From Methanocaldococcus vulcanius M7 (GTDB taxonomy: Archaea > AGJL01 > Methanococci > Methanococcales > Methanocaldococcaceae): a stretch of DNA of 64,000 bases. Made by a program: the position numbers and the translations under genes. Positions 27,747-54,266 of the stretch are shown here, piece by piece. The stretch's first letter is position 1. Each line of letters starts with the position of its first letter. Location: positions 1,178,001 through 1,242,000 of the forward strand of contig NC_013407.1 in assembly GCF_000024625.1 (NCBI RefSeq), written 5' to 3'. The notes under the pieces are model-generated. The model ran no database searches. It worked only from the letters and a program-made list of their open reading frames with translations, and was not told the DNA's origin.

Positions 27747-29009
27747 ATGAGGAAGATGTTGTCATTCTTAGGAACGGGAAACTATAAACCATGCATATAT
27801 GAGTTTAATGGGACTCTAAGTGAGAAGACAAGATTCGCTCAAGAGGCAATAATTCAAAAATTGTGTAAAGATTGGGGGGAGGAGGATAAGATAATAATAT
27901 TCTTAACAGAGGGGGCTAAAATTGGAAATTGGTATGGTGAGAATTATAAAAATGAGAAAGAATTAACAGAAGGATTAAAAGAAAGGTTAAAAAAGCTAAA
28001 TTTAAAAGCTGAGATAATCCCAGTAGATATTCCTGATGGTAACACTGAAGAAGAAATTTGGAAATTGTTTAAGATAGTTTATGACACATTAGAAGAAGGA
28101 GATGAGGTTTATTTTGACATTACACACTCATTTAGATATTTACCAATGCTTACAACTATTTTACTGAGTTATGCCAAGGTATTAAAGAACATTAGAGTTA
28201 AAAGAATCCTCTATGGAAATATATATGGAGAAACTCCAAAGATTATGGATATCACAGCCTTTGATACTTTAATGTCTTGGACTAATGCTATTGATAAGTT
28301 TTTAAGTGGAGGTTATGCAGAGGATATTGTTAAATTGGCAGAAAGAGAATATTATCCAAGATTAAAAGAAAGTAAAGGTAAGGATGAATTTGCAAGGAAT
28401 TTAAGATTTGTAAGTAACCAACTTAACACTTTTATGGAATATCTTGCAACAGTTAGAGGACCAATGATTGATGAGTATGGATATAATAAGCTCAGAAATG
28501 CAATTGATGCAGTTCTAAAATCTATCAATGAGGGTAGTTCTATAGAACCAATGATTCCATTGTTAGAGAGGGTTAAAGAAAAATTAAGTGATTTTGAAGA
28601 TAACGATATTTATAATGGCTTAAAGGCAGTTAAATGGTGTATTGACCACAACTTAATACAGCAGGGATATACATTACTTCAAGAGAGCATTGTTACAATA
28701 ATCTGTAAAAAATTTGAGTTTGATGAATTAGATAGGGAATATAGGATGTTAATTAGTTCTGCTCTGAATATAAAGGGGCAAGATATTCCTGAAGATAATT
28801 GGAATGAGTTTGCAAAGAAAAATAAGGAGTTGATAAAAGAGACAATCTCTAAATGTGATGATGAATTGTCTAAAATATTTGTTGAAATTACACAATATAG
28901 AAATAATTTAAATCACGCTGGCTATAATAGAGATAAGAAAAAACCTAAGGATTTTGAAAACAAATTAAAGGAATTGTATGAGAGAACTCTAAAAGTGCTG
29001 TGGGGATAG
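27747..29009 (+). CDS. csx1: CRISPR ancillary CARF-HEPN RNase (Csx1/TM1812 type)
   Basis: 420-residue type III CRISPR accessory protein. The N-terminal CARF domain begins MLSFLGTGNYKPCIYEF and continues with IIIFLTEGAK, EVYFDITHSFRYLPML. The C-terminal HEPN domain carries the nuclease motif RNNLNH (Arg385-X4-His390). Such proteins are activated by cyclic oligoadenylate made by Cas10 and then cleave RNA non-specifically. It is the first gene of the operon, two bases ahead of cas10. Start ATG at 27747 behind GGTAGGTAAA; a second ATG three codons later is possible. Confidence 0.9.
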   Translation: MRKMLSFLGTGNYKPCIYEFNGTLSEKTRFAQEAIIQKLCKDWGEEDKIIIFLTEGAKIGNWYGENYKNEKELTEGLKERLKKLNLKAEIIPVDIPDGNTEEEIWKLFKIVYDTLEEGDEVYFDITHSFRYLPMLTTILLSYAKVLKNIRVKRILYGNIYGETPKIMDITAFDTLMSWTNAIDKFLSGGYAEDIVKLAEREYYPRLKESKGKDEFARNLRFVSNQLNTFMEYLATVRGPMIDEYGYNKLRNAIDAVLKSINEGSSIEPMIPLLERVKEKLSDFEDNDIYNGLKAVKWCIDHNLIQQGYTLLQESIVTIICKKFEFDELDREYRMLISSALNIKGQDIPEDNWNEFAKKNKELIKETISKCDDELSKIFVEITQYRNNLNHAGYNRDKKKPKDFENKLKELYERTLKVLWG

Positions 29010-29011
29010 GG

Positions 29012-31318
29012 ATGGATGAATTAAAACCAATAATTTTAGGAGTTATTTATAAAAACATTGGTGAAAATCTAAAGGAATGTTTAAAAAATTATGGTTATGA
29101 TGATGAGCTAATAGATTTAGTAGAAAAGCTTGTTGGAATTTCTGAAGAATGTATATTATCAAATGAAGAAAGTAAAAATAATGATAATTACGCTTTAAAA
29201 TCAGTATTTTGCTCAATTAAATTAGGTGATAAAGAAACAAAACCAAAATATTATCCTATTAAAGAGTTAGTTGTAAATCCAAAAACTATTGAAGAAATTC
29301 CAATTCCAAAAGACAAAGTCAAAGTAACTAAAGAAGATTATGAAAAGTTCATTTCTAAGTTTAAAAATGAGTTAAAAAATGCTGACACTGTTAATAAAAT
29401 ACTGACAATTGCTGAAAGGTATTTAACCTTTCTTCCAAAATATGATGACATCTCATTATACGACCACATAAAAATGAGTTCTGCAATAGCTACGGTATTG
29501 TTTAGATACTATGGGGGGAATATAAAAAATAAAGATATTGACTCAAATGAGCATGTATTTTTACTAATTGGTGGGGATTTATCAGGAATTCAGGACTTTA
29601 TTTATACAATATCAATGAGTGGTGCTTTAAAATCATTAAGGGCAAGGTCTTCATTCTTGGAATTGATGATAACAGATATTTGCTTAGAGATTGTTGATAG
29701 ATTAGGGCTATCAAGAGCTAATATTATCTACAATGGTGGTGGTAGCTTTACAATACTTGCACAAAATACTGAAGATGCTAAAAAGATATTAGAAAAAATT
29801 AGATTGGAATTAACCCAGTATCTATATGAAAAATTTAATGGAAAATTATATTTGGCTATGGATTGGATAGAAATTAGTGGTAAAGAGTTAAAAGAGTTTA
29901 AAAAGGGTAAAAAACCATTAATTACTATGTTAAAAAATAGAATTAATGAGAGAAAGTCAAAAAGATTTGGAGAGATTATTGAAAAAGATATTTTCAAGTT
30001 TTATGACACTACTTCAAAGAGGGATGAATGTGAGATTTGTAAAAAGTTATTAACTGAGAGTGAAATGAAATACATTAAAGAAAAAGATATTTATGCCTGT
30101 GAATTTTGTAAAATGTTATTTTACTTTGGAACCTCTTTACCAAAAATTGATGGATTTATTAGGACAAAGGAGGACATCTCCTTATATTTAAACCAGAAAG
30201 CACACTTAGAAATGCCATTTTCACACATATATGCTGTTAATGTTGAAGATTTAAAAGAAGAGCTAAAACATACTAATAAAAAAGTTTTTGAAGGAAGTTT
30301 ATTACTTTTAAAGAATTCCTTTGATTTTTCAAACATTCCAGAACCTTTTGATGTAATTCCATATATCGTTGCAGACTATGCAAAAAAATCAGAGAAAAAG
30401 AGCAAAAATGAAGAAGAATATAACAACGATAATAATAAAGAACAAATTGCTGATTTTGATGAATTAGCTGAAAATTCAAAAGGAGCTAAGAGGATTGGAG
30501 TTTTAAGAGCAGATGTTGATAATCTTGGACTGATATTTGGGTTTGGTTTAAAAAATCCATCACTTCCAAGAATAGCAACACTGTCAAGATTCTTAGATTA
30601 CTTCTTTAAGGGATATTTAAACACAATAATTAAGCATGACATTAAAGAAGTTCCAAAAATCCCAAAAGACAATAAAGAGCCAAATATTGTAGTTGTTTAT
30701 GCTGGAGGGGACGATTTATTCATTGTTGGAGCTTGGGACGAAGTGTTTAACTTAGCATTTAAGATAAATGAAATGTTTAGAAAATACGTTGGAGAAAATT
30801 CCAATATAACAATCTCTGCTGGTTTAGGATACTTTGATGAGAAATTTCCAATCTCAAGAATGGCTAACACAACTTATGATAGATTAGACACAGCAAAGGA
30901 TGAAGGAAAGAATAGGATTTATGTTATTGAAAGATTAAAGCCAAAAAAAGATGGATTTAAAAAGAGTCATAAATTATCTTATGAATGGAATGAATTTAAA
31001 AAATTATGGGATAAGTATGTAGAAGATGAAAAAATAAAACTTTATAAGAGATTAACTGAAAAATCAGAAAATAAACTCTCAAAAGGAGTAATTTGGAAGA
31101 TTTTGACGGCTCATAATATGTACGTGAATAATCCAAACGGTATTAAGTGGAATTATTACTTAACTTATCACCTTGCAAGGCATGAGGTGGATGAAATGTT
31201 TAAGGATTTAATAGCTATTGACGTTCCTAAGGCAGTGAATAAAGAGCCACAAGAGATTTACTATATTGATGGTATTTTGAAGATAGTGTTATTCTCACTA
31301 AGGGAGGGGGTGAAGTGA
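29012..31318 (+). CDS. csm1: Cas10/Csm1, type III-A large subunit, GGDD cyclase, no HD dyad
   Basis: 768-residue Cas10 of the Csm type. Seen: SLYDHIKMSSAIA (typical linker), first palm (GGDLSGIQDFIY, INYNGGG-like IIYNGGG), zinc ribbon with CX2C at ~340 and ~364, and the second palm with GGDD at 565-568 in YAGGDDLFIVG, then SAGLGYFDEKFPISRMA. The GGDD site makes cyclic oligoadenylate. The N-terminus is only ~75 residues up to the linker; where an HD nuclease has LLHDIGK this protein reads VIYKNIGE, so DNase activity is likely lost. The start at 29012 lies two bases after the csx1 stop. Confidence 0.94.
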   Translation: MDELKPIILGVIYKNIGENLKECLKNYGYDDELIDLVEKLVGISEECILSNEESKNNDNYALKSVFCSIKLGDKETKPKYYPIKELVVNPKTIEEIPIPKDKVKVTKEDYEKFISKFKNELKNADTVNKILTIAERYLTFLPKYDDISLYDHIKMSSAIATVLFRYYGGNIKNKDIDSNEHVFLLIGGDLSGIQDFIYTISMSGALKSLRARSSFLELMITDICLEIVDRLGLSRANIIYNGGGSFTILAQNTEDAKKILEKIRLELTQYLYEKFNGKLYLAMDWIEISGKELKEFKKGKKPLITMLKNRINERKSKRFGEIIEKDIFKFYDTTSKRDECEICKKLLTESEMKYIKEKDIYACEFCKMLFYFGTSLPKIDGFIRTKEDISLYLNQKAHLEMPFSHIYAVNVEDLKEELKHTNKKVFEGSLLLLKNSFDFSNIPEPFDVIPYIVADYAKKSEKKSKNEEEYNNDNNKEQIADFDELAENSKGAKRIGVLRADVDNLGLIFGFGLKNPSLPRIATLSRFLDYFFKGYLNTIIKHDIKEVPKIPKDNKEPNIVVVYAGGDDLFIVGAWDEVFNLAFKINEMFRKYVGENSNITISAGLGYFDEKFPISRMANTTYDRLDTAKDEGKNRIYVIERLKPKKDGFKKSHKLSYEWNEFKKLWDKYVEDEKIKLYKRLTEKSENKLSKGVIWKILTAHNMYVNNPNGIKWNYYLTYHLARHEVDEMFKDLIAIDVPKAVNKEPQEIYYIDGILKIVLFSLREGVK

Positions 31319-31897
31319 ATGAATACTAGGAGTCAGAGAGTACCAAATGATATGTTAATAACAGAAATGGAAAAAATTGTAGCATTACTTAATGAAGATA
31401 CTATAAAAGTGAACGAAATTAAAAAATTGGTAATAAATATATCAAAAAATCTTGAAAAAATTAAAAGTAAAATAGAAAAAGAGAAAAAGAAAAGTAAAAT
31501 TTTAGAAAAATTAAAACCAAAATATGATGAAATAATCAAAAAATCTCAAAACTTCAAGGACTGGGATGAAAAAAGAGAATTGCTAAGATATGCTATAATC
31601 ATGGCAATATACTGTAGAATAAACGATTTAAAAACTAATCAAATTAGAAAAGTTCTCGATTTAGCAAATAGGACTCATTTAAAATTGAGAAGAAATAAAA
31701 ATGAAAATATTGAAAGTGATTTAGCAAAAATGTGTTATATTTTAGCATATACTGCAGGAAGGAATCAGGCAGTAGAACCATTAGCTAATGTATTAGACAT
31801 AATGCTTCAAAATGCTGATAACAAAAGTTTTAATAAACTTTATGATTTCATTCAAGCAGTTGTTGCATACCATAAATTCTTTGGAGGGGGAGAATAA
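31319..31897 (+). CDS. csm2: Csm2, type III-A small subunit
   Basis: 192-residue helical protein in the Csm2 position. The C-terminal half (KPKYDEIIKKSQNFKDWDEKRELL is the recognisable area, then AYTAGRNQAVEPLANVLD, LYDFIQAVVAYHKFFGG) fits Csm2, which lines the inner side of the complex along the crRNA/target duplex. Residues ~20-75 form a Lys/Glu-rich coiled segment. The ATG follows the cas10 stop directly (TGAATG). Confidence 0.85.
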   Translation: MNTRSQRVPNDMLITEMEKIVALLNEDTIKVNEIKKLVINISKNLEKIKSKIEKEKKKSKILEKLKPKYDEIIKKSQNFKDWDEKRELLRYAIIMAIYCRINDLKTNQIRKVLDLANRTHLKLRRNKNENIESDLAKMCYILAYTAGRNQAVEPLANVLDIMLQNADNKSFNKLYDFIQAVVAYHKFFGGGE

Positions 31898-32778
31898 TGG
31901 AGGATAGAAATAGAAAATTCTATGGAAAAATAATTTTTAAAGGAAAAATAAAAGTTAACACTGGATTACATATTGGCTCTCAAAGAGATGTTTCAGAAAT
32001 TGGAGGGATTGATAATCCAGTTGTTAAGGATCCAATAACCCAACTACCATACATCCCAGGCTCCTCTTTAAAAGGTAAGTTAAGGTCTCTCTTAGAAATT
32101 GCTGAAAATACAAAAAAACCAAAAGAAGAACAAGGTATTGGAGATGAAAAATTCTTTAATAGAAAAATAATAAGAGGTTCAAAAGAGCCAATTTGGATTC
32201 ATGTTTGTGAAAATTATAAAGATGCAAAAGAGTGTCCAGTTTGTAGATTGTTTGGTTCTGGAGGAAATTCAAACTTCCCAGCAAGAGTTGTTGTTAGAGA
32301 TGCTCATCTAACAGACTATTGGAAAGAAAAATGGGAAACTGGTGAAGAACTTACAGAAATCAAGCATGAGAACACTTTAGATAGAATTACTTCAGCTGCA
32401 AGTCCAAGAAAAATTGAAAGAATCCCACCAGGAGTTGAATTTAATTTTGAGATTATTTACACCATAGAAGATGAAAATGATTGGAAAGAAGACGTTAAAA
32501 ACTTATTAAGCACTATGAAAATGCTTGAGGATAGTTATTTAGGTGGATGTGGTTCAAGAGGTTATGGAAAAGTTGAATTCATATTTGAAGAATGTAAATT
32601 TAGGAGTTTAAATTACTACTTCGGAAAAGATTATGAAAAACCAATTGAAATAAAGGAAAACGTTGAAAATACAATTAATGAGTTTTATAATATATTTAAT
32701 AAAGAATTAGAGGAAATTATTAAATCAATATCCCAAAATAACGGTGGAGACAATGGATACAAAAATAATAAAACTTAA
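31897..32778 (+). CDS. csm3: Csm3, Cas7-family target RNA-cleaving backbone subunit
   Basis: 293-residue RAMP protein. LHIGSQ, GGIDNPVVKDP with the expected catalytic Asp39, YIPGSSLKGKLRSLLE, CPVCRLFGSGG and the Gly-rich end of the RRM (GGCGSRGYGKVEF) are all Csm3 hallmarks. Csm3 copies form the backbone and cut bound target RNA at 6-nt spacing. The start overlaps the csm2 stop by one base (TAATG). The C-terminal ~50 residues (from ENVENTINEF) are an extra helical tail. Confidence 0.95.
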   Translation: MEDRNRKFYGKIIFKGKIKVNTGLHIGSQRDVSEIGGIDNPVVKDPITQLPYIPGSSLKGKLRSLLEIAENTKKPKEEQGIGDEKFFNRKIIRGSKEPIWIHVCENYKDAKECPVCRLFGSGGNSNFPARVVVRDAHLTDYWKEKWETGEELTEIKHENTLDRITSAASPRKIERIPPGVEFNFEIIYTIEDENDWKEDVKNLLSTMKMLEDSYLGGCGSRGYGKVEFIFEECKFRSLNYYFGKDYEKPIEIKENVENTINEFYNIFNKELEEIIKSISQNNGGDNGYKNNKT

Positions 32779-33715
32779 TTTTAAAACACCAATTCATGTG
32801 GGGGATTTTAACAATCTTTCTGGACAAGAAATTCCTATACATTCTGATACAATTTTTGGGGCTATTTGTAATGCTTTGGATAGGTTAGGAGTAGATGTTA
32901 AGGATTTTGTTAAAAATCATGGAGAAGATTTTGTAATATCATCAGGATTCCCATACGTAAAAGATAAGTTATACTTTCCAAAACCTTTGAATGTTGATAA
33001 GTTGATTAGCAAAAAATTCAATGAAAATGCCAATGAAGAGACATATAAAAAATTAAAAAAATTCAAAAAAATGAAATTTTTTGATAAAAAAATGTTTGAG
33101 GCAGTTATTAATAGAGATGAAGAAATGATTGATAGTATTTTAGATGAAATAGAGGATGAAGAAGATTATGGTTATAAGATATTTGATTTACCAAAGGTTG
33201 TTTTAGATAGGGTTACTGTAGATTCCCAAATATACTACTTAACAATGGCAAGATTCGAAGAAGATTGTGGTATCTATTTCTTATATAGGGGCAATAAAAA
33301 AGTGTTTAAAAATTATATAGAGCCAGCTATAAGATTACTTGAAGATGAGGGCATTGGTGGAAAAAGAAGTTGGGGTTTGGGGTTGTTTAATGCAAAAATA
33401 GAAGATTTTAAGTTAAATGTTCCAAAAAATGGAAATTATTATTTAACATTATCCCTTATGTATGTAGATAATCCAAAAATCTTAGAGAGATGGAATTTTG
33501 TATATAGGAAAGGTTGGATTTTTACAAGGTATGGAAAACCTCATAGAAAACCATTAATAACAATGATAAGTGAGGGTTCAATTGTTAAAGAAAATTATAG
33601 TGGAGAAATTATTGATTTAGATGGATTCTGGGAAATATCTAAGGAAGTAGGGCATAAAGTGTTTGTAAATGGTAGAGGGTTTTTAATTCCGATAAAATAT
33701 GGGTGGAGGAAATGA
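32753..33715 (+). CDS. csm4: Csm4, Cas5-like 5'-handle-binding subunit
   Basis: 320-residue RAMP of the Csm4 type: FKTPIHVGD, SDTIFGAICNAL, FPKPLNV, LPKVVLDRVTVDS and GGKRSWGLGLF (Gly-rich loop) are visible. Csm4 holds the crRNA 5' handle and contacts Cas10. The start at 32753 follows GGTGGAGACA and overlaps csm3 by 26 bp. A lysine-rich stretch (KKLKKFKKMKFFDKK) lies in the middle. Confidence 0.92.
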   Translation: MDTKIIKLNFKTPIHVGDFNNLSGQEIPIHSDTIFGAICNALDRLGVDVKDFVKNHGEDFVISSGFPYVKDKLYFPKPLNVDKLISKKFNENANEETYKKLKKFKKMKFFDKKMFEAVINRDEEMIDSILDEIEDEEDYGYKIFDLPKVVLDRVTVDSQIYYLTMARFEEDCGIYFLYRGNKKVFKNYIEPAIRLLEDEGIGGKRSWGLGLFNAKIEDFKLNVPKNGNYYLTLSLMYVDNPKILERWNFVYRKGWIFTRYGKPHRKPLITMISEGSIVKENYSGEIIDLDGFWEISKEVGHKVFVNGRGFLIPIKYGWRK

Positions 33716-34809
33716 AGCTTGAGATTCTAACACCTACTCATATTGGTAGTGGAGAGAAACTTTTACCAACGGATTATTATCCAATTAAAGATATGCATGG
33801 GAATATAACAAAAATTATTGTTATTGACATTGATAAATTGTTTAATACCTTAATTTCAATGGGTGTAAATGTTAATGAGGTTGTAGAAATTTTGAGAGAA
33901 AGTAAAAGTTACCCATTAACTAAAATTTTTGAAAAATATCATTTAAAACCAAAAGATTTTGAGAAATATCCTTTGGACATTGTTGGAGGTTATGGAAAAT
34001 ATAGTATGCAAATAAATACTTTTATAAAAACGTGTGGAATGCCTTACATTCCTGGAAGTTCAATAAAAGGAGCTATAAGGACTGCATTGATGTATTATAT
34101 TGTTAAGGATAATAAAAAACTTCTAAGTGACATAATAAATGAACTTAATAAAATTGTAACTCAAAAAAATGCTAAAAATTTTGTTAAAAGGGCTGATGAT
34201 AAGCTTGATAAAAAGATATTTGGTAATGACCCAAAATTTGACGTTTTAAAATCTTTAATCATTAGGGATAGTGAAAAAATAAGCTTAAAAAAATTAAAAG
34301 TTTATAAGGTTGAAATTTTGGGCAATGACGCTCCAATCCCTACATATATTGAAGGACTTGAAAACATTAAAATAAATTTTGAAATGCAAATTAACGATGC
34401 TATATTAAAAAATGTCAATTTTAATGGAATGTTAAAAAATATTGACTTTGAGTTGATTAAAAATGCAATTAGGGAGTTTTCTAAAGCAGTTATTAATGCA
34501 GAGATTAACGAGATATATAAATATGGTAAATATAAAGAGAATATGCTTAAATTTTACAAGAATTTGGAAGATAAAATTGAAGATGGAGAGTTGTTTATAA
34601 GGATTGGATGGGGCAGTGGTTGGTATTCTACAACCATAGGAGTTTTATTAAAAACTCATCCAAAGTTTGAAGAATTGAGAAAGAAATTGGGCTTAGGTAA
34701 AAATCCTAAAACAAAAAAGGTTGTTAATGATTATCCAAAAACAAGGAGGATAGTTAATAACAAACCACTTGGATGGGTTAAATTAGAGGGAGAGTTATGG
34801 TTAATATAA
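33712..34809 (+). CDS. csm5: Csm5, Cas7-like cap subunit
   Basis: 365-residue RAMP protein of the Csm5 type: LEILTPTHIGSGEKLLPTDYY at the N-terminus, MPYIPGSSIKGAIRTALMY, and the Gly-rich RIGWGSGWYSTTIG at the C-terminal side. It caps the complex at the crRNA 3' end and is linked to crRNA maturation in other systems. ATGA overlap with csm4; its own 3' end overlaps the helicase start by 13 bp. Confidence 0.92.
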   Translation: MKLEILTPTHIGSGEKLLPTDYYPIKDMHGNITKIIVIDIDKLFNTLISMGVNVNEVVEILRESKSYPLTKIFEKYHLKPKDFEKYPLDIVGGYGKYSMQINTFIKTCGMPYIPGSSIKGAIRTALMYYIVKDNKKLLSDIINELNKIVTQKNAKNFVKRADDKLDKKIFGNDPKFDVLKSLIIRDSEKISLKKLKVYKVEILGNDAPIPTYIEGLENIKINFEMQINDAILKNVNFNGMLKNIDFELIKNAIREFSKAVINAEINEIYKYGKYKENMLKFYKNLEDKIEDGELFIRIGWGSGWYSTTIGVLLKTHPKFEELRKKLGLGKNPKTKKVVNDYPKTRRIVNNKPLGWVKLEGELWLI

Positions 34810-37800
34810 TTGATAATTCAAACATCAAATTGGCAGATTTTATTAAAAGAAAACTTAAAAAATCCAAAGAAGCAAAGTTTGCTTTGGGTTATTTCTTTTT
34901 AAGTGGTTGGGATATTGTAAAAAATGATTTACCTGATGATTTAAAAGATGAGTTTTTAAAAATAGTTATTGGTGATGAAACTACAGAAGATACTGCAAAA
35001 GAAATTTCAAAAGGATATAAGTTGAGGGTTAAAACAAAAATTATAGAAGAGCTATCAGAAGCTAAGAATGAAGAAAAGATAAATGAACTTTATGAATTAA
35101 TAAAAAATAATAAGATAGATATAAAAATTTACGATAAGGGGAAATTACACGCTAAACTTTATCTATTCTTAGAAAATCCAGATGAGCTAAACAATGATAT
35201 AGGTTCTTCTCCAGGGGTCGCGGTTGTTGGTTCATCCAACTTTACAAAAAGTGGATTAATTAATAATAAAGAGTTGAATGTTGTTTTTACGGATAGAGAA
35301 GCAATAATCAACTTAAATGAATGGTTTAATAAACTTTGGGAAGAGAGTAGTGAATTTAGAGAAGAATTACTAAAAATTATTGAAATTTCAATGCCAAAGG
35401 GTAAGAAAGAAGGATTAAAGTTAGGAAAATACATTACTCCAAAAGAACTGTTTAAATTTTTAGTTTGGAAATGGTTTGATGGTAGGATTGAACCAATAGA
35501 GAAAAGGGATATTCTTGCTGATTTTCAATTAATTGGGGTTATAAATGCTATAAACATAATAAATAGTCATAATGGTGTTATAATCGCTGATTCTGTTGGT
35601 TTAGGAAAGAGTTTCATTGGAGCTACTTTAATTGAAGAGTATTTAATTGGAAAAATTCCAGAATGGGACCCAAATAAGTATGGAATTAACAAAGATAGAA
35701 AGGCATTATTGATATTGCCACCCCCATTAATCCCACAATGGGAGGATTTATTATTAAGAAGTCCATTTTTCTTTGGACATAGTGAGTATTATGTTAGGAA
35801 AAAGGAGAAAAATGAATTAGATACTGATAAGTATAGAGTTTATGAGATTTACAAAAAGGATATGACAAAAGTTGGGGAAATTGGATTTTTATCCTTAGGA
35901 ATTTTTAGTAATTTAAGTAAAGAGGTTTTAGAGCATTTAAGTTATGAGTATGATTTGATTTTGATTGATGAGGCACATAAGTTTAGGAATTCACAAACAA
36001 ATAGGTGGAGAAATGCCCACGATTTAAGATTTAAGGAAAATGATAAAATATTCCAGAATAAGTTTATTCTACTGACTGCAACGCCTTTAAACAATACAAT
36101 ATGGGATATTTATTATTTAATAAAGATGTTTTCAGATGATTTGTTCTCTACATTTAAAGCAAGAGGGGTTAATATTACTGAATTATTTAGGGAATACCGA
36201 GATTTAAAGAAAAAATTCAAAGAAAATCAAAATTATGACACTGAGTCAAAATTAAAATTAAAAGCACAGGAGATTAAGGAGAAGGTTTTAAATGAGGTTA
36301 TGATTTTAAGGACAAGGAAGTATATTTTAGAGAATTTTGGTAAAGATGGAAAGATTAAAATTGGTAGTAGGGAGTTAGTGTTTAAAGAACCGCAACCAGA
36401 AAAAGTGTTGTATGATGATATTAAGGATTATAAAGAGTATTGGGAGTTTTTAAAGAATATTGCAAATGATTTAGAGAATTTAGAGTTTGCATACACAAAA
36501 CTTTATACAAGTGGTTATGTGGTTTTAGGAAATTCTTGCTCTTCATTATTTGAGGATAAACCAGAAGATGCTGAAAAAGAAAAAATTGCTGTTCCAATAC
36601 ACTTAATATTGAGGTTTTTAATTGCTAAGAGGTTGGAAAGTAGTATTTACGCATTTGAAAAAACATTAAGGAAGATTTACAATAAAAATAAAACTTTATG
36701 TGAAATTCTTGGAGGATTGGATTCTGAAATTGAGAAATTATCAGCTGGAAATCTAAAATTGGATGAATTCTTTGAAAAATTAAAAGAAATTACAGATAGG
36801 CTCTTAGAAGTTGCAGGCAAGGAGGATATTGTTGAGGAGGGAGAAATTGGAGAGGAAGAATCTACTTATAACCCAAAGGTAAGGATGCTTATAAACTTCC
36901 TTACTTATGGTGAAGAGAAAAAAGAGTTATCATTCAATAGTGAGGAAGAGGTATTTAACTACTTAAAAAAACATCCCGAAATGGTTTATAAATTAAAAGA
37001 GGGTATTTTTAGAATATTAAATGAAATGAAGAAAGATAATGAGATAATTGAGAAGATAATTGGAAAATTGGATAATGTTAAGGTAAAGAATGAGAATGGT
37101 AATCCAATTACAGTTGGGGTTATTATAGAGGATAATGTAGAGTATCCAATATACGTTTATAAAGACCCAAAATTAAAGAAACTCAGGTCTTTAATGTATA
37201 ATGAATTAGTTGGTAAAAAATACGTAATTTTTACACAATATAAAGATACTGCAAAGTATCTTTACCACTCTCTAATTAAATATGTTGAGAGGCAAAAATC
37301 CACATTAACTTATTTATTTGATACAAAACGAAACAAATTAAAAATCGGATTAGTTACTGGAGAATTGGGTATTGAGGAGAAAGAGAGATTAATTAAAAGG
37401 TTTGCTCCAAGTGTTAATAATGGTTATGAGGTTGTTGAAAAAGAGGGAGAGATTGAGATTTTAATATCAACTGATTCATTAAGTGAGGGAGTTAATTTAC
37501 AAGAGGGAGATGGAGTTATTAACTATGACTTGCCATGGAATCCTATGGTTATAGTGCAAAGGGTTGGAAGAGTTAGTAGAATAGGTAATGAAAAGGATGT
37601 ATTTGTTAAAAACTTTGTTCCAGTGCAAGAGATTGAGGTTTCTGTTGGATTATTGGCAAAATTGCAGGAAAAGATTAAGGATATTACATTAGTTGTTGGG
37701 AAAGAGTTTTATATTTTAAGTTCTGCTGATGAAGAGATTTCTATAGAGACATTTGGGGAGAAGATTAAAAACCTTGCTGAATTGAAATTAACTGAATTAG

Positions 37801-38519
37801 AGGAGGTTTCTGCTACTGAAGAGGCTAAGGAAATTATGGGGGGTAAGATTCCTGAAGAAGTTAAGGCAGAGTTTGAGTTATTGGACTTTGTTCAAAATAG
37901 ATTAGGGTTGAAAAAAGAGGATTTTGAGGATGTTAAGGGGTTGTTATCTTCAAGAGTTCCAGGTTATACTTTGATTGAAGGAGATGATATTTTTGGAGTT
38001 TTTGAAGTTTATAGAGGAGATATGAGGATTGGAAAGAAGGTTGTGGTGTATAAGGAGGATAAGTTAGAGGAAACAACTTGTAGAGAGTTTATTAAATTAT
38101 GGAATGCTGAGGGATATAAAGAAGATGTTGATTTTGAAAAAATTTCCAATAATTTATTGTTATTGAGAAATAAGTTTAAGGATGAGATTCTTCCAAAGCA
38201 TAAGGGAAATATAAAAGGAAAAGGTTTTATAAAGAATCTATATAATCACCTATACAAATTTAAAAAACAAAGAACATTAACTGATGATATTGATAGGAAA
38301 AAATTAGACAGTGTTTTATCTTTCCTATCATGGTGTGAATTAACCACGCATGAAGTAAAAGAGTTTAAAGATTATCTCAAATCTAAAGGAATTCTTGATG
38401 ATAAAGGAAATTTAAAAGATAACAATCCAAAGATTCTTATTGAGTTAATTTATGGTTATTTCAATATAGGGGAGCTTAATAAGAAATTAGAAGGAAAAAT
38501 GATTGCATGGTGGTGTTAA
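34797..38519 (+). CDS. PLD nuclease-SNF2 helicase fusion, defence protein
   Basis: 1240-residue protein. Residues ~1-175 form a phospholipase-D-type nuclease half with the HxK motif LHAKLYLF (His118, Lys120) and SSNFTKSGL (Asn148). Residues ~235-960 form an SNF2/HepA-type helicase: DFQLIGV (Q-motif area), VGLGKS (Lys271), DEAH (391-394), LLTATPLNN, ISTDSLSEGVNLQ and QRVGRVSRIG. The last ~280 residues are unassigned. The SNF2 and PLD parts recall DrmD and DrmC of DISARM, here in one chain. Only one HxK is seen, so a dimer would be needed for a full PLD site. Ribosome binding signal GGGAGAGTT lies inside csm5. Confidence 0.88.
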   Translation: MVNIIDNSNIKLADFIKRKLKKSKEAKFALGYFFLSGWDIVKNDLPDDLKDEFLKIVIGDETTEDTAKEISKGYKLRVKTKIIEELSEAKNEEKINELYELIKNNKIDIKIYDKGKLHAKLYLFLENPDELNNDIGSSPGVAVVGSSNFTKSGLINNKELNVVFTDREAIINLNEWFNKLWEESSEFREELLKIIEISMPKGKKEGLKLGKYITPKELFKFLVWKWFDGRIEPIEKRDILADFQLIGVINAINIINSHNGVIIADSVGLGKSFIGATLIEEYLIGKIPEWDPNKYGINKDRKALLILPPPLIPQWEDLLLRSPFFFGHSEYYVRKKEKNELDTDKYRVYEIYKKDMTKVGEIGFLSLGIFSNLSKEVLEHLSYEYDLILIDEAHKFRNSQTNRWRNAHDLRFKENDKIFQNKFILLTATPLNNTIWDIYYLIKMFSDDLFSTFKARGVNITELFREYRDLKKKFKENQNYDTESKLKLKAQEIKEKVLNEVMILRTRKYILENFGKDGKIKIGSRELVFKEPQPEKVLYDDIKDYKEYWEFLKNIANDLENLEFAYTKLYTSGYVVLGNSCSSLFEDKPEDAEKEKIAVPIHLILRFLIAKRLESSIYAFEKTLRKIYNKNKTLCEILGGLDSEIEKLSAGNLKLDEFFEKLKEITDRLLEVAGKEDIVEEGEIGEEESTYNPKVRMLINFLTYGEEKKELSFNSEEEVFNYLKKHPEMVYKLKEGIFRILNEMKKDNEIIEKIIGKLDNVKVKNENGNPITVGVIIEDNVEYPIYVYKDPKLKKLRSLMYNELVGKKYVIFTQYKDTAKYLYHSLIKYVERQKSTLTYLFDTKRNKLKIGLVTGELGIEEKERLIKRFAPSVNNGYEVVEKEGEIEILISTDSLSEGVNLQEGDGVINYDLPWNPMVIVQRVGRVSRIGNEKDVFVKNFVPVQEIEVSVGLLAKLQEKIKDITLVVGKEFYILSSADEEISIETFGEKIKNLAELKLTELEEVSATEEAKEIMGGKIPEEVKAEFELLDFVQNRLGLKKEDFEDVKGLLSSRVPGYTLIEGDDIFGVFEVYRGDMRIGKKVVVYKEDKLEETTCREFIKLWNAEGYKEDVDFEKISNNLLLLRNKFKDEILPKHKGNIKGKGFIKNLYNHLYKFKKQRTLTDDIDRKKLDSVLSFLSWCELTTHEVKEFKDYLKSKGILDDKGNLKDNNPKILIELIYGYFNIGELNKKLEGKMIAWWC

Positions 38520-41500
38520 TGGTTAAGGTTGAAAAATTATTGAGTTATGATGGATTAATTGAATATTTAAGAAAAAATAATTATAAGGAAATTGAGGAGG
38601 GAAGATTTGTTGTTTATGAGGATGAGGATTTGGGTGTTGAGGAAATATTGGTTGTTAAAAAAGGTAGTAACTACAAAGAAGACTTAAAAAACCTAAAAAA
38701 GGAACTTTCAAAATCTGAAGAAGTTTTAGAGGGAGAAAAAGTAGAGTATGGAATTTTGTTTGTAGATAATTATGTTCTATTCTTAAAAAAAGAAATGGTT
38801 GGACTACCAGCAAAAGTTGTAGTTCTCAAAAAATCATTGGATAAGATTAGTCCAGCATTTAAGAAGAAGTTGAAAAAGTTGGCTAAAGATTTTGGAAATC
38901 TTGAGTATTGGGAGGTATTGTTTGATAGGAGTGATATTGTTGAAGAATTCTATAAACTATATGTTAAGGCAAGAGAGTTATTAATTAAAAATATTAAAGG
39001 CATTGATGATGATGAGAAGAAAATAAAGTTTGCAAATAATTTATTGATGAAGTTGTTTATAATTTGGTATTTGCAAGAGAAAGGATTTTTAGATGGAGAT
39101 AAAAGGTATTTAATAAACAAATTTAAGGAATATAAAAATTTAGGGTTTAATAGCTATTATGAATTCCTTAAAGAGTTGTTTAGTATAATGATGGGGGATA
39201 AGGGAGGAAATTTAACATTTAAAGATAATAAGTTTGGAGAGATTGTAATTACTGGACCTGCACCATTTATTAATGGAGAGATAATAGAAAATGTTGAAAT
39301 TCCAGATGAAGTGTTTTATATTGATGGAAAAACTGAAGAATTGAAAAAGATAGAACCAAAAAATGTTAGCATAGTTCCAATTTTGAACTTATTTGAGAGT
39401 AGAGATTGGGTTGTTGAAGGAGGAGATGTTGAAGGAGATATAACTGATATGATGTTGGGAGATATTTTTGAAAAGCAGATGGTAGAGGAGGAGAGAAAAG
39501 ATAGCGGTTCTTACTATACTCCAGCAAAGATTACACGATATATTTCACAAAATGCCATTGAATCTTATGTTTTAGATAGGTTAAATGAAGAGTTAAAGAC
39601 AAATTATAAAAATTTAGATGATTTCTTTAAAAATGAGAAGGATTTAAGGGCTTATAAGTTGTTGTATGATATTTTGAATGATATTAGGATATTAGACCCT
39701 GCATGTGGTAGTGGGCATTTTTTAGAGAGGGCAGTTGAGGTTTTAGTTGATATTTATGAAAGATTGAGGGATAAAGTTAAAGAACTTGGTTTTGATGGCA
39801 ATTTGTTTATAATAAAAGTGGCTGATGACAATGGAAACATTAGGAATGAGAATTTATTATCTATTGATGATGAAGAGTTTAAGATGAGAATTAAATTCCA
39901 TGTTATTGTTTCAAAGAATATTTATGGAGTAGATATTAATGAGAGTGCTGTTGGGATAAGTAAGGCAAGGTTGTTTTTATCAATTGCAAAACATTTTGAT
40001 AAAGAGAAGGGAATTTTTGTTAGATTTCCAAATGTTCATTTCAACATAAGGGATGGAAATAGTTTAATCGGTTATGCAAGGATGAAAAAACCAGAAAGAA
40101 CATTAGATGCATGGCTTAAATTTGGTAGTGAGAAGATTGAAGAGTTAAAGGAAGAGTTTAAGGTTGTTTCTGAATTGGGAGATTATTTAAAAGAGGTTTC
40201 TAAGGTTTTAAATCAGAAGGGAGATATTTTAAAGGACATTGAAGAGTTGAATAAGATAATAAGTAAAAAAGAATTAAGTTGGTTAGATTTTGAGAAAGTT
40301 TTAAAGATAAAAGAAAAATTAGTTGAGATATTATTAGTTTCATTAAATTCAAAGTATGCAATTCCATTGAATAAATTGTTAAGGGATATTAATAAGAAAT
40401 TTAATGAAAAATTGGATGAGATGTTTGTAAAAGAGTTTGGAATTGAGGAATATGTTAGTCCAAAAATTTTAAGGGAGGGAAAATTAAAAAGATTCCATTG
40501 GTTTTTTGAATTTTCAGAGGTTTTTGTTGATAATGGTGGGTTTGATGTAATTATTGGAAATCCTCCTTATGTAAGGCAAGAGAGGATAAATGACATTGTT
40601 AAAGGTGTTGATTATAAGGAAATATTATCAAAATTGTATAAACCTTATGATAAAATGTTTGATTTCTCTATGTTCTTTATATTGAGAAGTTTGGAGTTGT
40701 TGAAAGATAAGGGCTATCATTCCTTTATTATAACCAATAAATGGTTAAGGGCAAGGTATGGAAAGAAGATAAGGAAGTTTTTAAAAGAAAATGTTACAAT
40801 TAAGAAGGTTATTGATTTTAATGCTGTTAAAGTATTTGTTGGTGTAACAGTAGATACTATGATTTATATTGTTAAGAAAGAGAAACCAGATAAGGATAAT
40901 AGGATATTTTATAATAATCCAAAGAGTTTGGAGAATATTGAAGAAGGAGGTTATTATGTTAAACAGTTTAATTTAGAGGATGATGTTTGGAACTTTGTTG
41001 ATGAAAGAACTTTGGAAATAAAAGAATGGATTGAAAAAGTTGGAGTGCCTTTGAAGGAATTAGATATTAAAATTTTCTATGGTATAAAAACTGGATTTAA
41101 TGAGGCGTTTATAATTGATGATGAAACAAGGAAAAAGTTGATTGAAGAGGATGCAAAAAGTGAAGAGTTGATTAAACCAATATTGAGGGGTAGGGATATA
41201 GGAAGGTATTATGTGGAATGGGATAAATTATGGATGATTATAATACCTGCTGGATTTACTAAAAGATTATTTAAAAAAGATTTACCATTAAAGGATGCTG
41301 AAGAATTGTTTAAAAAAGAATATCCTTCAATTTATAAACACTTTGAACCATTTAAATACAAAAAAGGAAAAGGAAAAGGGTTGGTAGATAGGGATGACCA
41401 AGGAGATTATTGGTGGGAGTTAAGACCATGTGATTATTATCAAGAATTTGAAAAACCAAAAATTATGTGGCAAGAAATAGTTAGAGAACCTTCATTTTAT

Positions 41501-42112
41501 TTAGACCAATCTAAAATATATGGAGAAGCAACAACATTTATAATGACTTCAAAGAAGATGAATTTAAAATTTTTATTAACAATTCTCAATTCAAAATTAT
41601 CTTGGACAGCAATTAGGTTTTATGGGACTAATTTAGGAGATAATACAGCAAGATATAAAAAAGCATATATTGAAAAAATCCCAATCCGACTTCCAAATAA
41701 CACCAAACCTTATGAAATCTTAGCTGATTATCTATTATTCTTAAATGCAAAAGAGGATTGGAGAGAGAAATATAAAGAACTCATAAACTTCTTTGATAAG
41801 GAAATTGCTGACTCTTTAGTTTATGAACTCTACTTCAAAGAAAAATTATACAATGAAGATAAAGAATATCTATTAAATGCAATCTCAAAGCACTTAAAAT
41901 CAATAAATTATGATAGATGGGCTGAATTGTATTGGAAAAAGCAATTAAATGATGAATTAACAGAAAAAGAGGAAGAAGAATTAAAACAGTTGGAAGAAGA
42001 GAATTTAAGAATAATTATAGATGTCTATGAAGCAATAAAAGATGATGAAGAAATAAATAAACTAATTAAGAAAATAAAATCTCATAAATGGGTTAGGATT
42101 ATTGAAGGATAA
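38519..42112 (+). CDS. Adenine-specific DNA methyltransferase (type IIG/PglX/DrmMI-like)
   Basis: 1197-residue N6-adenine methyltransferase. Motif I DPACGSG (393-399), an X-motif-like SGSYYTPAKITRYI just before it, and catalytic NPPY (681-684) in VIIGNPPYVRQERI. The C-terminal third has a TaqI-like target recognition region (KPILRGRDIGRYYVEW ~885, then GDNTARYKKAYIEKIPI). The ~330-residue N-terminal region shows no clear PD-(D/E)XK nuclease motif, unlike true type IIG enzymes. It starts with TAATG overlap to the PLD-helicase gene, behind GGTGGTGTTA. It likely marks host DNA for that helicase-nuclease. Confidence 0.9.
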   Translation: MVKVEKLLSYDGLIEYLRKNNYKEIEEGRFVVYEDEDLGVEEILVVKKGSNYKEDLKNLKKELSKSEEVLEGEKVEYGILFVDNYVLFLKKEMVGLPAKVVVLKKSLDKISPAFKKKLKKLAKDFGNLEYWEVLFDRSDIVEEFYKLYVKARELLIKNIKGIDDDEKKIKFANNLLMKLFIIWYLQEKGFLDGDKRYLINKFKEYKNLGFNSYYEFLKELFSIMMGDKGGNLTFKDNKFGEIVITGPAPFINGEIIENVEIPDEVFYIDGKTEELKKIEPKNVSIVPILNLFESRDWVVEGGDVEGDITDMMLGDIFEKQMVEEERKDSGSYYTPAKITRYISQNAIESYVLDRLNEELKTNYKNLDDFFKNEKDLRAYKLLYDILNDIRILDPACGSGHFLERAVEVLVDIYERLRDKVKELGFDGNLFIIKVADDNGNIRNENLLSIDDEEFKMRIKFHVIVSKNIYGVDINESAVGISKARLFLSIAKHFDKEKGIFVRFPNVHFNIRDGNSLIGYARMKKPERTLDAWLKFGSEKIEELKEEFKVVSELGDYLKEVSKVLNQKGDILKDIEELNKIISKKELSWLDFEKVLKIKEKLVEILLVSLNSKYAIPLNKLLRDINKKFNEKLDEMFVKEFGIEEYVSPKILREGKLKRFHWFFEFSEVFVDNGGFDVIIGNPPYVRQERINDIVKGVDYKEILSKLYKPYDKMFDFSMFFILRSLELLKDKGYHSFIITNKWLRARYGKKIRKFLKENVTIKKVIDFNAVKVFVGVTVDTMIYIVKKEKPDKDNRIFYNNPKSLENIEEGGYYVKQFNLEDDVWNFVDERTLEIKEWIEKVGVPLKELDIKIFYGIKTGFNEAFIIDDETRKKLIEEDAKSEELIKPILRGRDIGRYYVEWDKLWMIIIPAGFTKRLFKKDLPLKDAEELFKKEYPSIYKHFEPFKYKKGKGKGLVDRDDQGDYWWELRPCDYYQEFEKPKIMWQEIVREPSFYLDQSKIYGEATTFIMTSKKMNLKFLLTILNSKLSWTAIRFYGTNLGDNTARYKKAYIEKIPIRLPNNTKPYEILADYLLFLNAKEDWREKYKELINFFDKEIADSLVYELYFKEKLYNEDKEYLLNAISKHLKSINYDRWAELYWKKQLNDELTEKEEEELKQLEEENLRIIIDVYEAIKDDEEINKLIKKIKSHKWVRIIEG

Positions 42113-52208: not shown

Positions 52209-54266
<2,058 letters not shown>

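Follow-up and report, generated by a model that had tools for sequence, protein, structure and literature searches.

The genome of Methanocaldococcus vulcanius M7 encodes a type III-A Csm effector whose Cas10 (Csm1) subunit has very probably lost its N-terminal HD nuclease domain within its own lineage, and which would act through a cyclic oligoadenylate signal, not through DNA cutting by Cas10. In this Cas10 the HD residues are absent and the cyclase motif is intact. Its gene sits in a csm gene order, the protein nests among HD-positive relatives, and the same genome carries a second Csm locus. The locus lies in a 64,000-nt window, the whole stretch of DNA that was analyzed (C1:1178001-1242000 on a contig of 1,746,329 bp); coordinates below are those of the window unless prefixed with C1 or with a locus number.

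Organization of the csm locus

The locus and the two genes behind it comprise the following features.

27747-29009, + strand: Csx1-type CARF-HEPN ribonuclease, first gene (DITHS at residue 124, HEPN motif RNNLNH at residue 385)
29012-31318, + strand: Cas10/Csm1, 768 aa; HD nuclease absent, GGDD and zinc-finger cysteines intact
29012-29188, + strand: stub (Cas10 residues 1-59) where the HD domain normally sits; predicted helices, no histidine
31319-31897, + strand: Csm2 (PF03750, TIGR01870)
31897-32778, + strand: Csm3 (TIGR02582, 228 bits; GGIDNP motif kept)
32744-33715, + strand: Csm4 (TIGR01903, 285 bits)
33703-34809, + strand: Csm5 (TIGR01899, 228 bits)
34797-38519, + strand: PLD-SNF2 helicase (HAKLYLF, GLGKS, DEAH; PLDc_2, SNF2 and Helicase_C; PADLOC C3a139 HKD+Snf2, 1325 bits)
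38507-42112, + strand: Eco57I/TaqI-type N6-adenine methyltransferase, IIG-like (DPACGSGHF, NPPY; PF07669, PF12950; PADLOC REase_MTase_IIG)

Cas10 scored 577 bits against the Csm1 profile TIGR02578 (cut-off 170), identifying it as a type III-A Csm1, and Pfam matched its palm2 (PF22335, 130 bits) and Csm1_B domains. Beside it stand csm2 to csm5, four adjoining genes on the same strand, each over its NCBIfam III-A cut-off. The aspartate of the Csm3 GGIDNP motif cuts target RNA in studied Csm3 proteins. The first gene is a CARF-HEPN nuclease, as the initial annotation of this DNA had it. It matched the PADLOC CARF2--CARF_HEPN profile (E 1.8e-120) and TIGR02221 (90.5 bits, cut-off 76), gave only 18 bits with Pfam Csx1_CARF (below the cut-off of 24.7), and on motif reading has DITHS for the CARF domain and RNNLNH for the HEPN R-x4-H.

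Elsewhere in the window, at 52209-52403, a gene that by eye resembles IMP dehydrogenase has 65 nt of its 3′ end duplicated at 98%. A 65-nt insert that is richer in G+C separates the copies, which lie 130 nt apart; either a small insertion that left a long target duplication or a partial duplication could have produced this arrangement.

Absence of the HD nuclease site

The initial annotation had described a short N-terminus without an HD pair, and both observations held. The segment before SLYDH measures 147 residues, whereas the HD-positive rows of the tree described below have at least 188 (median 203). Residues 1-151 contain no histidine, the first being residue 152, within SLYDH itself. 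Pfam HD (PF01966) gave no match in Cas10 (29012-31318), yet picked up the domain in two positive controls, the closest relative (E 3.2e-6) and the second Csm1 of the genome (E 1.2e-7). The alignment of Cas10 to TIGR02578 spans only model positions 82-753 of 753; the profile matched in 12 of the 14 genomes of the genus, and the 12 other over-cut-off matches among these 14, including the second Csm1 of the same genome, begin at position 3 or 4. Because the reading frame (778 open codons for 768 aa) opens only about 10 codons ahead of the ATG at 29012, where the Csx1 gene (27747-29009) ends, no in-frame HD domain has been missed through a wrong start.

Histidine content was informative only in its extreme. 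The 63 HD-positive rows have at least four histidines before SLYDH (median six) and the other HD-less rows have 1 to 10, so that a low number alone does not prove loss of the domain; judged from the sequence, the zero count in Cas10 29012-31318 does exclude a histidine-based site. The closest relative shows GGLLHDIGK, FHH and ESDNISSSER; the HD dyad, further histidines and late aspartate of a DNase-competent protein are all missing from Cas10. The A-D-x-x-A-S helix, previously described as lost, indeed does not conserve its late aspartate (SEECILSNEES opposite SDNISSSER of the closest relative). An HD-domain HMM scored the stub at -0.8 bits, against at least 61.4 for the 63 HD-positive rows, from which the HMM was itself built.

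The motif VIYKNIGE had been placed opposite LLHDIGK, and by position it is in the same register: the best window of an HD-helix profile in the stub falls there. Homology was not established, however, since 20% of 5000 shuffled stubs score equally well, as do 36% of shuffled stubs with a profile from the nine archaeal relatives; the equivalence is positional only.

The intact remainder and its predicted structure

From SLYDH onward, Cas10 retains each of the 22 columns that are invariant in the 63 HD-positive rows, so decay of the gene is not apparent. These columns include GGDD (residues 565-568), reported as intact in the initial annotation; G565-D568 and the zinc-finger cysteines C340, C343, C363 and C366 are invariant in 31 sequences. 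An AlphaFold2 model (mean pLDDT 88.3) has helices at residues 4-15, 20-25 and 31-48, ahead of the linker. This three-helix stub is predicted to occupy the place of the HD domain, a position toward which the input alignment, with mostly HD-bearing relatives, may draw it.

The Csm1 of Thermococcus onnurineus has an HD nuclease, and two Thermococcus relatives (L069, L070) show LLHDIGK. In VIA-align the Cas10 model aligned with solved Csm1 chains from residue 1-2 to 765 (Z about 36), among them 6o7h (Z 36.5, rmsd 2.3 Å, 694 aligned residues). The T. onnurineus protein (4uw2, 6mur, 6o7h) has the same architecture after the HD domain, with 42% identity over the 694 residues aligned to 6o7h; it is HD-bearing, whereas Cas10 here has a stub without ligands.

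Relatives of Cas10 and the probable loss of HD

An alignment search for Csm1 relatives found at least 547, of which the best 80 were taken. A single-sequence pattern search of the genome contigs found no Csm1 relative, and none of its 38 matches in viral contigs was one. Among the matches listed, the closest relative (L047:10066-12570, 52% identity) is one of two Csm1s of a genome (G035) that we take to be Methanotorris, and the next closest are proteins from Thermococcus and Archaeoglobales; the genus and order names used here for the other sampled genomes are likewise our assumption. Cas10 is only 27-31% identical to 12 other Csm1 rows of its own genus (from 11 other genomes, plus the second copy in its own), which are at least 48% identical to one another.

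In a 91-row quick tree built with the N-terminal columns left out, Cas10 falls inside a starred set of ten archaeal rows, the other nine of which are HD-positive. This nesting makes a lineage-specific loss the most likely reading of the sequences. Gain of the domain in the other nine rows but not here is a less likely story, although the number of changes on the tree cannot by itself separate gain from loss. HD labels were assigned by eye on the alignment, and L082, negative by a narrow pattern, has HDTG and was counted as HD. A first tally that included L101 gave 28 HD-less rows and 8 changes; without it there are 27 HD-less rows, 63 HD rows and 7 changes. L101, a Syntrophomonadaceae Cas10, has an HD region separated from the rest of the protein by an in-frame stop. 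Two rows counted as HD-less, L121 and L132, reach 61.6 and 78.6 bits, which falls among the scores of HD-positive rows (from 61.4), and so are damaged HD sites rather than missing domains; recounting them as HD leaves 25 HD-less rows and 5 changes. Left off the tree were L099 and L130 (frame cut by a contig end), L142 (incomplete 5′ end), the Csm1 of G004 (L009) and the second-family Csm1 matches except both of G035. The L009 frame stops early, at profile position 670 of 753.

Loss or damage of HD also occurs elsewhere on the tree, in 20 cyanobacterial rows that form a clade and in six bacterial rows at scattered places. The cyanobacterial proteins (20 of the 91 rows; loci between L079 and L141) resemble Cas10 in the length of the part before SLYDH (138-166 residues, against 147 here) and in having no HD signal (at most 2.0 bits with the HD HMM, one row without a match). 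Their position elsewhere on the tree points to a separate loss.

In the csm locus of the closest relative, Csx1 seemingly survives only in pieces (L047 8327-9789; 30% match, pieces by eye), and CRISPR repeats lie within the same stretch. The window's Csx1 is most similar to that of the other csm locus of G035 (L049, 48%).

A second, HD-positive Csm locus in the same genome

The initial annotation did not foresee that the M. vulcanius genome has a second Csm locus (C1:1123546, L050), whose Csm1 has both HD and GGDD and which carries two CARF-HEPN genes and Csx20. The genome has one Cas1 match (PF01867) and one Cas6 match (TIGR01877, the sole Cas6 profile searched), and one repeat pattern occurs 197 times, with at least 10 clusters among the 101 matches listed; no CRISPR array was found in the 64-kb window. 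The single Cas1, Cas6 and repeat pattern suggest that the two Csm loci may share guides.

The HD-less Csm may be an accessory that adds a signal, DNA being cut by the HD-positive Csm of the same cell with shared guides. We consider this a real possibility, though somewhat short of an even chance. The HD-positive locus and the single Cas6, Cas1 and repeat pattern speak for it, as does a report, in the part of the article available to us, that effector-less loci are enriched in genomes carrying several type III loci (PMC11229360). The window locus has its own Csx1, however, and is not of that effector-less kind. An accessory role is compatible with the explanation we prefer, a signaling Csm effector whose Cas10 lost its HD domain.

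The adjacent helicase-methyltransferase pair

The initial annotation suggested that the lost DNase may be replaced by the neighboring PLD-helicase and methyltransferase. Such a replacement, brought in or switched on once the Csm complex has bound target RNA, is very unlikely. In its favor, the pair is on the same strand as the csm genes, with overlaps of 13 nt both between csm5 and the helicase gene and between the helicase and methyltransferase genes; PADLOC names the helicase C3a139, a name we take to denote a type III-associated protein; and C3a139 finds nothing at E 1e-20 in the HD-positive G035, whose csm locus L047 matches neither gene. The overlap with csm5 makes it probable that the pair is co-transcribed with the csm genes.

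Against replacement stands the distribution of the pair. C3a139 matches (E 1e-20) occur in 9 of the 36 genomes of the phylum set, and roughly 19-kb stretches were compared from the four best-scoring other genomes (G028, G030, G017, G031). In three of these four loci of the order (L063, L064, L066) both window proteins match and adjoin, with the L066 helicase interrupted by a stop; at L065 the helicase matched in part only and the methyltransferase not at all. No csm gene matched within any of the four stretches. G028 (L063) has the pair and no Cas10 match, and G030 and G031 each have a Cas10 match on another contig. On haloarchaeal and Thermococcus plasmids (L067, L068) both proteins match without being adjacent, with no csm match nearby.

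The converse comparison agreed. Among the best 80 of at least 547 Csm1 relatives, 26 of them HD-less or HD-damaged, the methyltransferase is beside none and the helicase beside one (L101, a weak match). Of the 80 loci, 40 have more than 5 kb of sequence on each side of cas10, including 19 of the 26 in which HD is absent or damaged, and 48 have more than 8 kb downstream. No CARF or SAVED sensor was recognized in either protein, by Pfam or among the PADLOC rows listed (25 of 41 and 25 of 54). The helicase and methyltransferase are probably a restriction-type module separate from the csm genes and lying behind them. A bolder arrangement, in which two defense layers are joined, is more doubtful still: DNase-less, RNA-triggered Csm signaling would be combined with a pair coupled to csm5 translation that cuts DNA with methylation as the self mark, the HD stub serving as a docking site for the helicase.

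That a complete HD site is displaced within Cas10 or supplied in trans by a standalone HD protein is scarcely credible. The sequence speaks against a displaced site, there being no histidine before residue 152 to form one. The HD domain of the relative found four matches in the genome (E up to 1): the second Csm1, the later part of Cas10 itself, a 170-aa HD protein at C1:34896 (E 2.2e-4) and a weaker match at C1:1367999 (E 0.01). The 170-aa protein lies more than 500 kb away, has neighbors that are not CRISPR-like and looks by eye like an ordinary HD phosphohydrolase.

Proposed working of the system

In the signaling model that we favor, crRNA would be made by the genome's one Cas6 from arrays elsewhere on the chromosome and would guide the Csm complex to a viral transcript, where Csm3 would cut the target RNA and the GGDD palm of Cas10 would make cyclic oligoadenylate. 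The adjacent Csx1, presumably activated by this product, would then degrade RNA, perhaps together with both CARF-HEPN proteins encoded at the second Csm locus. With three helices filling the HD place, the complex itself would cut no DNA; any that is needed may be done by the HD-positive complex of the second Csm locus, and guides and signals may be shared between the two systems. The anatomy (no HD site, a cyclase motif and Csx1) fits the earlier suggestion of signaling by cyclic oligoadenylate without DNA cutting by Cas10.

Comparison with known systems and significance

Cas10 29012-31318, with HD absent, GGDD present and an effector gene nearby, has on sequence grounds the make-up of an HD-less, cyclase-positive protein. 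According to the accessible part of PMC11229360, 437 of 1113 type III loci (39%) have a recognizable HD, the share being 65% for III-A, and 92% have a cyclase. A Cas10 that lacks HD but keeps its cyclase is common among type III systems, and the present protein is ordinary in kind. As far as the available text of each report goes, the Cas10 proteins of Vibrio metoecus, with a NucC effector (PMC8682760), and Bacteroides fragilis (PMC10600005) have no HD nuclease domain and use their cyclase. Both share the missing HD domain with Cas10 here; in contrast to the III-A system with Csx1 in the window, theirs are III-B systems with other effectors. The effector in B. fragilis is CorA. A literature search for M. 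vulcanius with CRISPR and Cas10 found no paper.

Knowledge of type III systems is unchanged by this finding. The locus offers what looks like a single, clean loss of HD, the nine other sampled rows of its archaeal group all being HD-positive, and, with an HD-less and an HD-positive Csm in one genome, a natural comparison for what the HD nuclease adds.
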